35,051 nucleotides of DNA from Candidatus Coatesbacteria bacterium (GTDB lineage Bacteria; RBG-13-66-14), in the NCBI GenBank assembly GCA_014728225.1, contig WJLX01000004.1, positions 1 through 35,051 on the forward strand. The letters are read 5' to 3'. The translations under genes were made by a program, and so were the position numbers. This document shows positions 24,036 through 31,932 of the stretch, one piece after another (the stretch's first letter is position 1; the number at the start of each line of letters is the position of its first letter). Below the pieces are notes generated by a model. It searched no databases. It saw nothing but the letters and a program-made list of their open reading frames with translations, and was not told the DNA's origin.

Positions 24036-25140
24036 GGCCTCCCGGGAAAAAGCGCAGGGCGTTGGTGAACACCCAGGGCTTGGGGGCGCCGAGGCGGCGG
24101 CGGTGGACCTCGAGGCGGTAGGCTCCGGGTTGGCGAACGGTATGGTAGAGGCGGCGGGCCTTACGCCGCTTGACGATCCGCCCGTCGCCGACCAGGGTCA
24201 GGCGGGCGGCGGCGGGCAGCTCGACGAAGATCGTCCAGGGGCCGTCGTCGACGTCAGCCGTCGCGCCGAGCTCGAGGCGGTCGCCCCGGGGGTTCTCGGC
24301 CCAGACCCGCGCGCCCCGGGAGTCCCACCAGTAGTCCTGGGCGATGAAGCTGCGTCCGGCGACCAGGCAGTCCAGCAAGCGACGCTCGGCCGCCGCGGCC
24401 TCGAGCTGCCCCAGCGGTTCGCAGAAGGCGTGGGTGTGCATCGTCGCCAGGGCCAGGGGATAGGGCAGCAGGGGCACCTTGAAGCCGAAGACGTTGTAGG
24501 GGCGGCCGTGGTTGTCGTTGCAGCCGACGACGGGAGCCGGCCCTTGGCGCAACTGCTCGTCCCAGCGCAGCAGGGTCATCCGCTTGGGACCCTTGAGCAC
24601 CCAGGCCGGGAACAGCACGGCCTGCAGCGCCGAGGGCAACCCGCGCAGGTGGTCCTGCCAGTCAGTCATCAGGTCCCAGATGTCGACCAGATCGTAACCG
24701 GTGACGCTCCAGTCGCGCCAGGCGTAGCAGCCGATGCCGAAGCGCTCGTTGCCGCGGTGGTCGGGATGGGCGATGACGCCGACGCCGCCGTGTCTATTCA
24801 CTTCACGGATAAACCCCGCGGGCGGTAGCTGGGACAAATCCTCGGGACCGTCGTAGCCCAGGGCCAGGTAGTGGTTCTGGTCGGGGGTGATCTCGTCGCC
24901 GACGCAGAGCAGCAGGGATTGCCGGTCGCCGGGGCGCTCGACCCGGCGGGGACCGTCGTCGCCGGCGACGTACCAACCGTCCCAGCCGTCGCGCCGCGGC
25001 TGGAGGGTGTCGTGATCGGTGAGGATGATGAAATCGAGCCCAAGTTCCAGCCCGCAGGCGATGATCCGCCCCACGGACCAGGCGCCGTCGGAGTAGGTCG
25101 AGTGGAGGTGGATGACACCGCTGTACTCGCGCAGGCTCAC
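24025..25140 (-). CDS. PHP-domain metal-dependent hydrolase
   Basis: The 371-residue protein starts at GTG 25140, which shares one base with the stop of the Yip1-like gene. It reads VSLREYSGVIHLHSTYSDGA, giving the first PHP metal motif HxHxxxSDG at once. The other motifs are IILTDHDT, VIAHPDHRGN and GCNDNHG. PHP proteins are trinuclear metal phosphoesterases, often acting on nucleotides, phosphosugars or nucleic acids. The last 100 residues (LELGATADVDDGPWTIFVELP, YRLEVHRRR) look like a beta domain, as in CehA/McbA-like two-domain PHP proteins. The substrate is unknown. An extension of the frame to 25338 runs inside the neighbouring gene and is not used. Confidence 0.87.
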   Translation of the reverse strand: MSLREYSGVIHLHSTYSDGAWSVGRIIACGLELGLDFIILTDHDTLQPRRDGWDGWYVAGDDGPRRVERPGDRQSLLLCVGDEITPDQNHYLALGYDGPEDLSQLPPAGFIREVNRHGGVGVIAHPDHRGNERFGIGCYAWRDWSVTGYDLVDIWDLMTDWQDHLRGLPSALQAVLFPAWVLKGPKRMTLLRWDEQLRQGPAPVVGCNDNHGRPYNVFGFKVPLLPYPLALATMHTHAFCEPLGQLEAAAAERRLLDCLVAGRSFIAQDYWWDSRGARVWAENPRGDRLELGATADVDDGPWTIFVELPAAARLTLVGDGRIVKRRKARRLYHTVRQPGAYRLEVHRRRLGAPKPWVFTNALRFFPGGRDA

Positions 25141-25880
25141 TACATCGGACCGCCGAAGATGAAACTCAGGCCGTACATCGCCGCGGCCCAGATCGCCCAC
25201 AACACCCCGACGATGCCGAAGGCTTTCTTCTTCGGGATATCGACGATCTCGCTCAGGGCCACGGTGTAGAGGAACACCGTCCAGATGGAAAACAGGTCGA
25301 TCCGGTCGGCCAGCGATCTCAGCAGCCGCATGTACCATTCGGTCTGTCCCGGCGGAATCAACACCCCCAGGCTGGTCCCGGTGTGGAAGCTCCCCGTCAC
25401 CCGGAACAGGATCACGTGGACGATGCTCGAGGCGGCGTAGGTCACCAGCCCCAGGGAGGCGACGGCCAGGCCGCGTTTGAAGCCCAAGTGGCGGCCGGTT
25501 ACGCCGACGGCGACGTTGAGCGCCCCGGCCGCGGCCAGCAGGTAGAGGGTGATCTGGACCAGGGGCACGCCGAAGAAGAAGACGTAGAACAACGGACCCC
25601 GGCCGATCTGTTCGCGCCGCTGCTGCAGCATCTCCAGTTGCTGCTCCGGGATCTCGTCGCGGTGCTCGGCGATGTAATCATCGATCTGCTGCCGGCCCTG
25701 CTCGATCGCCATGTCCATGATGAAGACCGAGGCGCCCAGGGCGACGACCACGCAGACCAGGGCGAAGACGAACCAGCGCGGACGCTCCTTGAGCGCGCCG
25801 AAGGCGTCCTCGGGCGCCGTCACGGCGTCCAGCAACTGGTTCAGCGGGTTCTTGTAGCTGACCGGGGTTTCATTGTCCAT
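25140..25880 (-). CDS. Yip1-like integral membrane protein
   Basis: This protein of 246 residues begins with NPLNQLLDAVTAPEDAFGALKERPRW, the usual lead-in of bacterial YIP1-domain proteins. About five membrane segments follow (near 37-57, 97-122, 135-160, 195-215 and 222-243). A soluble glutamine-rich loop (IEQGRQQIDDYIAEHRDEIPEQQLEMLQ, given here in part) lies between the first two. Bacterial members have no firmly known role; some are linked to envelope or membrane organisation. The ATG at 25880 has AAAGGTG at a good distance; a GTG at 25889 overlaps that site. Its stop overlaps the PHP start. Confidence 0.8.
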   Translation of the reverse strand: MDNETPVSYKNPLNQLLDAVTAPEDAFGALKERPRWFVFALVCVVVALGASVFIMDMAIEQGRQQIDDYIAEHRDEIPEQQLEMLQQRREQIGRGPLFYVFFFGVPLVQITLYLLAAAGALNVAVGVTGRHLGFKRGLAVASLGLVTYAASSIVHVILFRVTGSFHTGTSLGVLIPPGQTEWYMRLLRSLADRIDLFSIWTVFLYTVALSEIVDIPKKKAFGIVGVLWAIWAAAMYGLSFIFGGPM

Positions 25881-25958
25881 CGCACGCACCTTTCGCTTGC
25901 GGTCGTAATCGGCTGGGAGCGCAAGACCCGCGCCGCTCTCCGGCGCACCGTCCGCGCG

Positions 25959-26501
25959 TCAACTCCAGATCAGGGGCAGGGGGGTCAGGGCCCAGGCGGG
26001 CAGGAAGCCGCTGAGGTTGACCACCCAGAGGATCAGGACGCTGTAAGCCCCGGCGACGAGATCGTCGATCATGATCCCCCAGCCGCCGGGCAGCTTCTCC
26101 GCCGGCCGCGCCGGCCAGACCTTGGCGATGTCGAAGAAGCGGAACAGCAAAAAGGCCAGCGCCAGGTTGAACCACGTCCGCGGCAGATAGCTCAGCACCA
26201 GCAGCATCACCGCCCCCTCGTCGACGGTGGCCTGGGAGGGATCCGGGTGCTCGTAGCGCTCGGCCAGCCAGCCGCAGGCCGGCACGCCGAGCAGGAACAG
26301 CAGTGCCCCCAGGGCCGGCACCAGCCAGGGCAGCTCCGGCGGCAAAACGACGTAGACGGCGCAGGCCGCCAGACTGGCCACGGTTCCCGAGGCGACGGGG
26401 AAGTAGCCCGTCAGGCCGAAGGAGCCGAGCAGCACGGCGGGGAGCTGGACGAGGCGCAGCTTGGGCGGTTTCTTCAGCTTGGTGCGCTTGATAATGCTCA
26501 T
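25959..26501 (-). CDS. pgpA: Phosphatidylglycerophosphatase A
   Basis: PgpA removes the phosphate from phosphatidylglycerol-phosphate to give phosphatidylglycerol, at the inner membrane. The 180-residue length is normal for the family. Signature blocks are FPVASGTVASLAA, ATVDEGAVMLLVL (family vDE), LFRFFDIAKVWPARP and GGWGIMIDDLVAG, where the paired Asp residues bind metal. Four membrane segments are visible. A GGGGA site lies eight bases before the ATG at 26501, inside the end of the PLD-like gene, whose stop is three bases upstream. The enzyme of the preceding step, PgsA, is encoded 1.1 kb upstream, separated from pgpA only by that PLD-like gene. Confidence 0.93.
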   Translation of the reverse strand: MSIIKRTKLKKPPKLRLVQLPAVLLGSFGLTGYFPVASGTVASLAACAVYVVLPPELPWLVPALGALLFLLGVPACGWLAERYEHPDPSQATVDEGAVMLLVLSYLPRTWFNLALAFLLFRFFDIAKVWPARPAEKLPGGWGIMIDDLVAGAYSVLILWVVNLSGFLPAWALTPLPLIWS

Positions 26502-26504
26502 GGC

Positions 26505-27626
26505 TTAATCCCCAAAGGCTTCGTCTAGGAGTTGTTTGCGGTAGTCGAGATCCACGGCGGCGCGATAGACGAGGGGGTTGTGAACTGCTTTAACATTTGG
26601 CAATGGTGAGTATCCCATTTGCGGTTGAGCCTTAACAATAGTTTCCCATTTAGCTAATAACTCATTAGAGATTAGATTAATATCATTATAATCCATTACA
26701 AAGCTAACATATATATAAGGATCAGAGCCCTTACTTTTTGTTATCAGCTTAAAGGGTTCTTTGTTATAATGTTTCTTAGTCATGCTTTCGTAACTATCTG
26801 GATCTATATCTTCTGGTAAGATGAATCCAATAGAATTGATATGTTGATGATTAGCTGTAAGGGAAAAACCTCTATTGATCGTAAGATTGATTGATAATCC
26901 TTTAGTGCAACTTGTTACAAATCTTTCTGGATATTGGTCTAGGTTTGCTATTTCTATTGCCCTTTTCATTAAATCGAAATATCCCTCAATCCATTCCTTT
27001 GATGGTGACCTTCTAATCGCCGCCAACAATCGTTTCCGGTGCTCGGCTTCTGTTGTCGGCGTCTTAGTCGCCTTCTTCTTCGAACGCTGATGCAGCTTGG
27101 TCTGCGTTCGATGGTTATTCTTCGAGAAGAGAGGCTCGGAGGTGGTGCGTTCGCTGACAGATCTTTCTTTAATCCTCGTTATTCTTTTAGCATCTATAGG
27201 TATCTCTTCTGATTCGTTCCATAGATTGGAATACCATTCCCTTAATTCAATGACAATATCGCCTTCGAAAAGTACCGCCGCTTCGTCACGTCTTCCAAAT
27301 CCCAGATCAGTTAAATTGGCCGAGCCCAGAAGCGCCTTCTCTTTCCCAATGAACACCTTGGCGTGCAACAAATCCTTGTGATGTATTTGATTGTGGTTAT
27401 TCTTACAGAATTCAATCAAACGCTGTTTGCTTCTGTCAGTTAAAGCATTGAAGCATTCATTGCAATCCGTTATCAAGCGCCATTCTTTGCCTTCGATCAA
27501 TCGTAATAATATATCAGGATTGAAGTAGGGCACAACTATCGACAAGGAGCCATCCGCGGCGACTTCCTCGATTGCATCCCAAAACGCAGTCGAAGCTTTA
27601 TCGCCCTCATGCACGATCAGCCGCAT
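26505..27626 (-). CDS. PLD-like (HKD) nuclease-family protein in an AT-rich insert
   Basis: The 373-residue protein has one PLD-superfamily catalytic motif, LLHAKVFIGKEKALLGSANLTDLGF (residues about 91-115; His93, Lys95, Asn108), with the GSxN part complete. A single motif suggests a dimeric active site, as in nuclease-type members and unlike cardiolipin synthases, which have two. Residues 1-60 (VPYFNPDILLRLIEG) fit the N-terminal PLD fold. A lysine-rich linker near 170-195 leads to a C-terminal domain of about 180 residues that I do not recognise. There is no membrane segment. The gene is AT-rich (parts near 25-40% GC by eye) amid GC-rich neighbours, pointing to transfer. Its ATG overlaps the pgsA stop (TGATG). 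A defence or nucleic-acid role is more likely than lipid metabolism, but this is inference. Confidence 0.85.
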   Translation of the reverse strand: MRLIVHEGDKASTAFWDAIEEVAADGSLSIVVPYFNPDILLRLIEGKEWRLITDCNECFNALTDRSKQRLIEFCKNNHNQIHHKDLLHAKVFIGKEKALLGSANLTDLGFGRRDEAAVLFEGDIVIELREWYSNLWNESEEIPIDAKRITRIKERSVSERTTSEPLFSKNNHRTQTKLHQRSKKKATKTPTTEAEHRKRLLAAIRRSPSKEWIEGYFDLMKRAIEIANLDQYPERFVTSCTKGLSINLTINRGFSLTANHQHINSIGFILPEDIDPDSYESMTKKHYNKEPFKLITKSKGSDPYIYVSFVMDYNDINLISNELLAKWETIVKAQPQMGYSPLPNVKAVHNPLVYRAAVDLDYRKQLLDEAFGD

Positions 27627-28243
27627 CACTCCTCCTCGGCCTCCAGGCCGGAGCGGATCAGCGCGCGGCCCTTGACCAGGTAGTCGACGCCGGAAACCAG
27701 GCTCTGCAGGGCGGCCAGACCGACCAGAGACAGGTAGACGATCCGGCAGATGCGGTCGATTTCCGGCGTCCAGGCGCCGCCGGCCTCGACGACGAGGGCG
27801 CGCACGGCCAGGAAGGCCACCACAGCGACCACGGCGGTCAGCTGCAGCAGGGTCTTGGCCTTGCCCAGCTTGCTGGAGGGGACCTCGACACCGCGGTGGG
27901 CGGCGTAGGCCCGCAGGGCGGTCACCAGCAGCTCGCGCCAGATGACGACGAGGGCGATCCAGAAGGGCACCAGGGGGGTGCCGGGGGTGTGCTCGACCAC
28001 GGCGAAGGTCACCAGGGCGCCGGCGACGAACAGCTTGTCGGCCAGGGGATCGGCGAAGCGGCCGAAGGCCGAGCCGCTGTCCCGGCGCCGGGCGACGATG
28101 CCGTCGACCAGGTCGGTCAGGGCGGCTATCAAAGCCAGGGCCAGGGCGGCGATGTACAGCCCGGTCCCGCCCAGAGCCAGACAGGCCGTGAAGGGAACGG
28201 TCAACACCATGCGCACCAGGGTCAGTTTGTTGGGCAGGGTCAT
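27626..28243 (-). CDS. pgsA: CDP-diacylglycerol--glycerol-3-phosphate 3-phosphatidyltransferase
   Basis: PgsA makes phosphatidylglycerol-phosphate from CDP-diacylglycerol and glycerol-3-phosphate in the inner membrane. The 205-residue protein starts MTLPNKLTLVRMVLTVPF, the family N-terminus. It contains the CDP-alcohol phosphotransferase motif as DLVDGIVARRRDSGSAFG (about 44-61) followed by RFADPLADK. The spacing DGxxAR...G...DxxxD is intact. WRELLVTALR and SKLGKAKTLLQ are further family blocks, and about five membrane segments are visible. It overlaps rimO by four bases (ATGA), and its stop shares a base with the start of the PLD-like gene. Confidence 0.95.
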   Translation of the reverse strand: MTLPNKLTLVRMVLTVPFTACLALGGTGLYIAALALALIAALTDLVDGIVARRRDSGSAFGRFADPLADKLFVAGALVTFAVVEHTPGTPLVPFWIALVVIWRELLVTALRAYAAHRGVEVPSSKLGKAKTLLQLTAVVAVVAFLAVRALVVEAGGAWTPEIDRICRIVYLSLVGLAALQSLVSGVDYLVKGRALIRSGLEAEEE

Positions 28244-29643
28244 GCTTCGGTCGGGGGTTCAGCGGCGGCGGGCTCGGCGCGTAGATCGTAGGGCAGGGCC
28301 TCGGTGTAGATGATGCGGCGGAACTCACCGGGGAGCCAGTCATGGCCCCGGGGCAGGACGACCTCGACGAAGCCGTCGACCTCGGGGCAGTGGCGGGCGG
28401 CGCGACAGACGGCGCCCTCCTCGGCGATGAAATCGACCAGCACCTGGTCCTCGGTGCCGACGAGGGCGCTGTTCTTCTCCAGGCTGACGGCCTCTTGCAG
28501 CTCGTAGAGGGCGCGGCGCCGCAGCTCCTTCTCGGCGGGGGTGACGTCGTCGTCCAGGGCGGCGGCCGGGGTGTTCGGCATGGCGGCGAAGGCGAAGACG
28601 CCCAGATGGTCGAAGCGCACCTCGTCGACGAACCTGACCAGTTCGTCGAAGGCGGCGGCGTCCTCACCGGGAAAGCCGACCAGGGCGGTGCCGCGCAGAA
28701 CGAGATCGGGCACCAGCTCCCGGGCCGCTTCGAGCGTCGCCCGCAGCTCCACGGGACCGCCCTCGCGGTTCATCGCCCGCAACACCCCGGCGTCGGCGTG
28801 CTGGAAGGGGAAGTCCAGGTAGGGCACGAACTGGGGCTGGGCGTCCAGGGCGCCGAGGAAAGCCTCGTCGATGCGGGCGGGGTTGGGGTAGAGAACGCGC
28901 AGCCAGAGGTCGTCGACGGGCAAGTTGAGGGCCAGCTCGCCGAGGAGGTGTGCCAGGGACGGTTCACCGTAGAGATCGCGACCGTAGGCCGTGGTCTCCT
29001 GGGCGATCAGGATCAGCTCCCGGGCGCCGGCCTGGACCAGACCGGCGGCTTCGCCGACGACGGCTTCGAGTTCGCGGCTGCGCTGGGGGCCGCGCAGGCG
29101 GGGGATGGCGCAGAAGGCGCAGCCCAGGTCGCAGCCTTCGGCCAGTTTGAGGTAGGCCGTGTGCGGCGGGGTCAGGGCGATGCGCTGGGGCAGGACGTCG
29201 GGGTTGCCGTCGTAGGCGCCGCCGGGCTCGCCGAAGCTCACCACGGGGGCTTCGGCCGTTTCAGCGGCTGTTCCGCCGAAGAGTCCGTCGACCAGCTCTC
29301 CCAGCCGGGGCAGGGCGCCGGTGCCCGCCAGCAGGTCGATCGCTGGGTACTCGTCGAGCAACCGCTCGCGCAGCTCCTCGACGGCGCAGCCGATCACCGC
29401 CAGCCTCGAACCGCCGAAGCGGTCGCGCAGCGAAGCCAGCCGCTCCAGCTCGACCCGTGTCTCCTCGAGGGCCTCGGGCAGAAAGCCGCAGGTGTTGATC
29501 AGGTACAGCTCGGCCTCGTCGTCGTCGGTCAGCTCCCAGCCCCGCCGGGACAACTGACCGAGGACGACCTCGGAATCCACCAGGGCCTTGCTGCAGCCCA
29601 GGGAGACCAGGTGAACCCGGCGCTGTCGGTGTCGCTCAGTCAT
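28240..29643 (-). CDS. rimO: Ribosomal protein S12 methylthiotransferase RimO
   Basis: RimO adds a methylthio group to an aspartate of ribosomal protein S12, using two [4Fe-4S] clusters and SAM. In this 467-residue protein the N-terminal MTTase cysteines are Cys17 (SLGCSKALVDSE), Cys52 (INTCGF) and Cys86 (VIGCAVEE). The radical-SAM triad is Cys171, Cys175 and Cys178 (GCDLGCAFCAIPRLRG). A TRAM domain closes the protein, with the RimO-like CPEVDGFVEV stretch. The family's usual GCPKN is GCSKA here, so the Asn after the Lys is replaced. It overlaps the zinc-ribbon gene by eight bases and pgsA by four, and so belongs to the long minus-strand run. Confidence 0.95.
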   Translation of the reverse strand: MTERHRQRRVHLVSLGCSKALVDSEVVLGQLSRRGWELTDDDEAELYLINTCGFLPEALEETRVELERLASLRDRFGGSRLAVIGCAVEELRERLLDEYPAIDLLAGTGALPRLGELVDGLFGGTAAETAEAPVVSFGEPGGAYDGNPDVLPQRIALTPPHTAYLKLAEGCDLGCAFCAIPRLRGPQRSRELEAVVGEAAGLVQAGARELILIAQETTAYGRDLYGEPSLAHLLGELALNLPVDDLWLRVLYPNPARIDEAFLGALDAQPQFVPYLDFPFQHADAGVLRAMNREGGPVELRATLEAARELVPDLVLRGTALVGFPGEDAAAFDELVRFVDEVRFDHLGVFAFAAMPNTPAAALDDDVTPAEKELRRRALYELQEAVSLEKNSALVGTEDQVLVDFIAEEGAVCRAARHCPEVDGFVEVVLPRGHDWLPGEFRRIIYTEALPYDLRAEPAAAEPPTEA

Positions 29644-31744: not shown

Positions 31745-31932
31745 GCTGAGACCTTTGAAAAAACCGATGAGGAACGCCGGCGGCTCGACGATCCGGAGCG
31801 CCGGAACTGGCACGGTTTTTGCGGAGGCGACACCGTCGGGTCGTTGGCTGCTTCGCCGAGATGCAAAAACCGTGCCAGTTCCGGCCGGTGCGGGTTTGGA
31901 CCGTCGGGCGGCCGGTTTTCAAAGGTCTCAGC
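31745..31932. repeat. Nested palindromic element 2
   Basis: The outer arms begin at 31745 (GCTGAGACCTTTGAAA...) and end at 31932; 16 bp pair perfectly, apart from two extra A further in. The inner arms 31801-31822 and 31863-31884 are a 22-bp perfect inverted repeat with GGAACTGGCACGGTTTTTGC. The 40-base loop starts GGAGGCG and ends CGCCGAGAT, so this copy is reversed relative to elements 1 and 3. Its inner arms differ from those by a paired change (C to T and G to A) that keeps the stem. It begins 12 bases after the ftsK stop. Confidence 0.9.

Follow-up and report, generated by a model that had tools for sequence, protein, structure and literature searches.

Insertion between pgsA and pgpA of an AT-rich, nuclease-like PLD-superfamily gene whose C-terminal domain is unnamed

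In this study, we analysed a 35,051-nucleotide stretch of DNA (the window) in which a PLD-superfamily gene separates two genes of phosphatidylglycerol synthesis. The window genome (G000) belongs to genus g1 and was compared with relatives including four genomes of genus g3 (G009, G010, G011 and G012) and one of genus g4 (G013). The locus contains the following features, in the direction of transcription.

28240 to 29643, minus strand: rimO-like gene, at the head of the conserved ancestral order rimO-pgsA-pgpA-yip1 (UPF0004, Radical_SAM and TRAM_2 domains; order the same in relatives).
27626 to 28243, minus strand: pgsA, CDP-diacylglycerol-glycerol-3-phosphate 3-phosphatidyltransferase, the upstream neighbour (PF01066 and TIGR00560 above cut-off).
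26505 to 27626, minus strand: PLD-superfamily gene, 373 aa, 41.7% GC, between pgsA and pgpA (open reading frame and translation, PF13091 above cut-off, composition).
27174 to 27626, minus strand: N-terminal PLD-like catalytic domain, residues 1-151, with the pattern HxK(x)10GSAN(x)10E and residues H88, K90, N104 and E115 (AF2 model, Foldseek and BfiI profile alignment).
27051 to 27191, minus strand: basic linker, residues 146-192, with a pI of 11.7 and a net charge of +11; its first residues are also the last of the modelled PLD stretch.
26508 to 27050, minus strand: residues 193-373, an unnamed C-terminal domain (approximately 180 aa) with a conserved SP...K...HNP..Y...LLDEAF block at its end.
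25959 to 26501, minus strand: pgpA, phosphatidylglycerophosphatase A, the downstream neighbour (PF04608).
25140 to 25889, minus strand: Yip1-domain gene downstream of pgpA (PF04893; order the same in G009, G010, G012 and G013).

The PLD gene is inserted precisely. Its ATG overlaps the pgsA stop codon (GAGTGATGCGG), and its own TAA is followed by GCC and then by the pgpA ATG, a gap of three bases. The open reading frames, the Pfam and TIGR matches and both junctions bear out the initial annotation, which had seated the gene between pgsA and pgpA without a break in the operon. The genes near it are rimO, pgsA, pgpA, the Yip1 and FtsK genes and two encoding proteins without Pfam matches; no methyltransferase, helicase-type restriction partner or defence gene is present among the adjacent genes. 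Searches around the gene gave no tandem repeats, nor any flanking pair of direct repeats that would suggest a target-site duplication.

The composition of the gene is strikingly unlike that of its surroundings, as had been claimed from the sequence: GC computed along the operon gave a GC3 of 0.43, against 0.89 for rimO, 0.93 for pgsA, 0.93 for pgpA and 0.92 for the Yip1 gene. Within the gene, GC is 55-57% in the linker, in the 25 codons at the start and in the 24 at the end, and only 24-35% in codons 226-325. The host median is 67% GC (500-bp windows over approximately 217 kb of the genome), and these 217 kb contain just three further islands with less than 47% GC, a masked contig that reads as N being excluded. 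These islands (L053 4000-4966, L055 500-1500 and L057 3250-5000) have 32-42% GC; one contains a PIN-like open reading frame (PF01850, E 0.0091, below the cut-off), and those tested from the remaining two have no Pfam match.

The order rimO-pgsA-pgpA occurs in several genomes beyond the family, and rimO-pgsA-pgpA-yip1 within it. When the pgsA-pgpA spacing was compared in relatives, as the initial annotation had proposed, pgsA was found to run straight into pgpA at an empty site in all four g3 genomes. In G013, contig C170 carries the C-terminal portion of the PLD gene immediately before pgpA, with 42-45% identity to the window copy. The contig ends inside the gene, with loss of its 5' half, and one internal codon of this copy is TAA; its GC3 is 46%, AT-rich like the window copy. 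The pgsA gene of G013 lies after rimO at the end of another contig, C154, and we infer that C154 and C170 probably adjoin each other. PgpA of the window shares 76% identity with that of G013 and 62-64% with that of g3; based on these values, g1 and g4 appear to be sister genera. At fourfold sites, the window and G013 are 65% identical in pgpA (43% expected by chance) and 40% identical in the PLD gene (21% expected, over only 30 sites), and the PLD gene is therefore not visibly younger than its neighbours. The recent insertion implied earlier is not supported, since G013 has the same gene, equally AT-rich, in the same place, and the insertion is probably old because a related genus carries a damaged copy there. 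Homologues of the same composition in the same place throughout the phylum had been named as the mark of an old resident gene; they were found in two of the eight genera, and a third has the empty site.

A REPIN-like hairpin lies elsewhere in the window (31800-31885), whose arms, CCGGAACTGGCACGGTTTTTGC and its complement, measure about 22-26 bp and enclose a mostly variable centre of about 38-45 nt. This copy folds at -61.5 kcal/mol (z -7.3), and Rfam gave no match in the window. It occurs 106 times in the window's genome, 128 times in G013, at most once in each of the other 12 phylum genomes and not at all in 47 others. Y1_Tnp (RAYT-type) transposases were matched in nine of the 14 phylum genomes, none of the nine being hairpin-rich; neither of the two hairpin-rich genomes gave such a match. 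The pgsA contig of G013 ends inside one copy (L047, G013:C154, 3210-3288), shortly after the pgsA stop, and this repeat may be the cause of the missing 5' half of the PLD gene in the assembly. One arm of this copy holds a perfect sigma-54-like TGGCACGTTTCTTGCA; a sigma-54-like promoter after pgsA was rejected because the site is an arm of the dispersed hairpin.

The PLD protein exceeded the cut-off of PF13091 (PLDc_2; 32.8 against 27 bits), with one PLD stretch in its 373 aa. The initial call of a single-HKD PLD-family protein holds for the family and the single motif, but 'HKD' should read HxK...N...E: the Asp of HxK(x)4D is absent, position 95 being Lys (N, R, P or H in homologues). BfiI also lacks this Asp, and its loss is therefore a variant within the PLD superfamily and not a ground for exclusion. 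H88-A-K90 and G101-S-A-N104 are invariant in alignments A5 and A6, and the quartet H88, K90, N104 and E115 is invariant in the five-member alignment A5 and kept in the plasmid homologues described below. BfiI (2c1l) was found at E 0.0025 with a profile built from the window, Halobacterium and Leptospira proteins, and H105, K107, N125 and E136 of BfiI, its catalytic residues (review, PMC4081073), align with the quartet. An AF2 model of the N-terminal domain, folded with four relatives from the fetched loci, reached a pLDDT of 83.3 and a pTM of 0.82. Foldseek matches of this model included NucT, Nuc, Zucchini, BfiI and the NgoAVII R-protein, with FAM83 domains, TrmBL2 and E. coli phosphatidylserine synthase likewise among them; the best structural match from viral models was a NucT-like nuclease. 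The modelled fold thus places the domain in the PLD superfamily and, given the synthase match, would by itself also accommodate a lipid substrate. The protein looks soluble, with a highest 19-residue hydropathy of 1.15 and no membrane segment.

The C-terminal domain, described earlier as about 180 residues of unfamiliar sequence, did prove to be without a Pfam match, and it gave no profile match to the B3-like DNA-binding domain. The full-length protein, modelled by AF2 from one sequence, had a pLDDT of 33.5. The domain is common to the Halobacterium, Leptospira and G013 homologues.

Two full-length homologues are encoded on plasmids: WP_176705247 from a megaplasmid of Halobacterium sp. GN101 (24.5% identity over 99% of the query) and WP_105096173 from Leptospira interrogans plasmid pDO5_2 (23% identity over 69% of the query). 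They have the same two-domain architecture as the window protein and, unlike it, are encoded outside any lipid operon; their annotated flanks contain no lipid genes. Both (P0002 and P0003) pass the PF09565 RE_NgoFVII cut-off (26.1 and 29.8 against 23.8 bits), and the window protein falls below it (13.5 against 23.8 bits). An unannotated fragment of the C-terminal domain is present on a Haloferax plasmid, in a region where restriction and methyltransferase genes also occur. No close relatives were found by peptide pattern in genome or viral contigs, and phage records gave no match. An alignment scan of contigs found only PLD-domain relatives, L040 and L041, and a scan with the N-terminal domain found L095 and L096; the C-terminal domain was not detected in 399 genomes of the phylum of L040 or in 397 of that of L041, searches that had no positive control there. 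An EVE domain guessed in the C-terminal half of L041 was dropped for want of Pfam support. PLD-domain relatives with other C-termini are encoded on two viral contigs and on plasmids of Acidovorax and Polaromonas, there just behind HipA genes. The plasmid proteins (L004 4995-7874 and L005 4968-7325) have 785-959 aa and are encoded directly downstream of HTH and HipA genes. One viral contig encodes a similar protein of 1040 aa (L095 1-3123); in the other, a 437-aa PLD-domain gene (L096 2761-4074), possibly a phage accessory gene, adjoins a tail-tape-measure-like open reading frame on the opposite strand.

The insertion into the lipid operon is thus real, and the inserted gene is of PLD type and nuclease-like, with a C-terminal domain that has no name. 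We propose that the gene was acquired horizontally and encodes a homodimeric BfiI-like nuclease whose C-terminal domain picks the target, probably in a restriction- or defence-type role; we regard this reading as reasonably probable. The active-site pattern, single motif, soluble character, +11 linker and relatives all point to a nuclease. The protein would be soluble and metal-independent, with the two HxK motifs, one from each subunit, forming one active site as in BfiI; one histidine would attack the phosphodiester and the other protonate the leaving group. The basic linker would connect this core to a C-terminal domain that probably recognizes a nucleic-acid target, such as foreign or modified DNA, so that the protein acts like a one-gene restriction- or defence-type enzyme. 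Because no methyltransferase gene is adjacent, a modification-dependent (Type IV-like) or conditional role would fit better than a classical restriction-modification pair. The gene would have entered by horizontal transfer, most likely once and before the g1/g4 split, replacing the pgsA/pgpA junction with translation unbroken. The gene would be co-expressed with pgsA, whose end provides a Shine-Dalgarno-like GAGGAGGAG for it to use, and its 3' end would supply the region just ahead of the pgpA start. The constitutive housekeeping expression suggested in the initial annotation may follow from this gene coupling.

The initial annotation had offered a captured defence-type nuclease or an unusual lipid enzyme, and of these the nuclease is the better option, based on the BfiI-type active site, the plasmid relatives above the NgoFVII cut-off and the lack of a membrane segment. 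A PLD-family phosphatidyltransferase, cardiolipin-synthase-like enzyme or phospholipase, recruited to the operon because it acts on the same lipids, would account for the position between two phosphatidylglycerol genes and for the Foldseek match to E. coli phosphatidylserine synthase (19-20% identity). However, the E. coli synthase chains have about 440 aa, and the window protein has only one HxK, no Asp at the HKD position and no hydrophobic segment, and conserves the N and E residues of the BfiI type. Its nearest full-length relatives are on plasmids with no lipid genes in their annotated flanks, and four g3 genomes have pgsA and pgpA without the PLD gene, making a lipid enzyme very unlikely. 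The internal TAA and missing 5' half in G013, together with the PIN-like open reading frame in another AT-rich island of the window's genome, would suit a toxin, a decaying relic or a selfish passenger without present host function. The stop codon also speaks against the nuclease reading, as the gene is either dispensable in G013 or affected by an assembly error. The same direction is taken by the NgoFVII score of the window protein, which is below the cut-off, by the lack of partner genes among its neighbours and by a C-terminal domain with no known relative. The window copy, in contrast, is intact, shares its conserved catalytic quartet with the plasmid homologues and keeps start and stop coupling with both neighbours, and we therefore consider such a relic, toxin or passenger improbable. 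It is similarly doubtful that a BfiI-like nuclease whose target-recognition domain is of a new kind has resisted GC amelioration during long residence in an essential lipid operon, and that its expression is thereby tied to membrane phospholipid synthesis, as, for instance, with a defence enzyme that could not be silenced without harm to pgpA expression.

For the history of the gene, it is most parsimonious to assume that it was inserted once, before g1 and g4 split, and has remained AT-rich. The junction might instead have been invaded separately in g1 and g4, or a resident allele might have recombined with AT-rich donors, and the present copies would then be younger than the split. Such repeated acquisition would explain why GC3 is still 43% and 46% in hosts of about 92% GC3, although much of the synonymous identity of pgpA has been lost, and why the 5' junction in G013 differs, with at least 79 bp of other sequence after pgsA. 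On the other hand, the operon position is the same, the 3' junctions are nearly identical (LLDEAFG and one to three further residues, then the pgpA ATG), and a profile of the C-terminal domain, run against 386 diverse bacterial genomes, found it in only two, G013 and the genome of the window. Repeated acquisition is accordingly unlikely, though to be taken seriously. Either the gene resists amelioration or it was replaced from AT-rich donors, the comparison being between two copies, one of them broken; as both have stayed AT-rich across genera, they can serve to test whether, and in what way, foreign genes ameliorate.

If the nuclease reading is correct, the locus presents a PLD-type nuclease with an undescribed C-terminal domain, common to plasmids of haloarchaea and Leptospira and to two genera of a phylum that has been little sampled, and would be an example of a stand-alone defence-type gene that became fixed within a housekeeping operon. 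Compared with known systems, the PLD-type cardiolipin and phosphatidylserine synthases have two HKD motifs per chain, whereas the window protein has a single HxK. The defence-associated PLD proteins DrmC (DISARM) and DpdK (Dpd) gave weak local matches around HxK (best E 7.7e-07), and PADLOC likewise reported weak matches to DrmC, DpdK and ZacB. The NCBIfam cut-offs were not reached for DpdK (NF041068, 25.9 of 100 bits) or DrmC (NF038319, 18.6 of 133 bits), and no DISARM or Dpd genes lie near the window gene. The R subunits of NgoAVII, NgoFVII and CglI (PF09565) have a PLD nuclease domain in common with the window protein; unlike them, the window gene has no adjoining helicase/ATPase partner, and its C-terminal domain has no detectable match. 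The Type IIS restriction endonucleases BfiI and BmrI differ in having a methyltransferase partner, and the window C-terminal domain has no detectable similarity to the B3-like DNA-binding domain of BfiI, the profile match to which covers only about 70 residues around the active site. BfiI has one active site at the homodimer interface and a separate C-terminal DNA-binding domain (PMC4081073), and the PLD nuclease dimer of the Type IV enzyme SauUSI has been described as reminiscent of that of BfiI (PMC7913695). BfiI/BmrI and the window protein share the N-terminal single-HxK PLD domain, the catalytic H/K/N/E quartet, a separate C-terminal domain and a similar length (358 and 373 aa). The gene is unusual, yet built from largely known parts.
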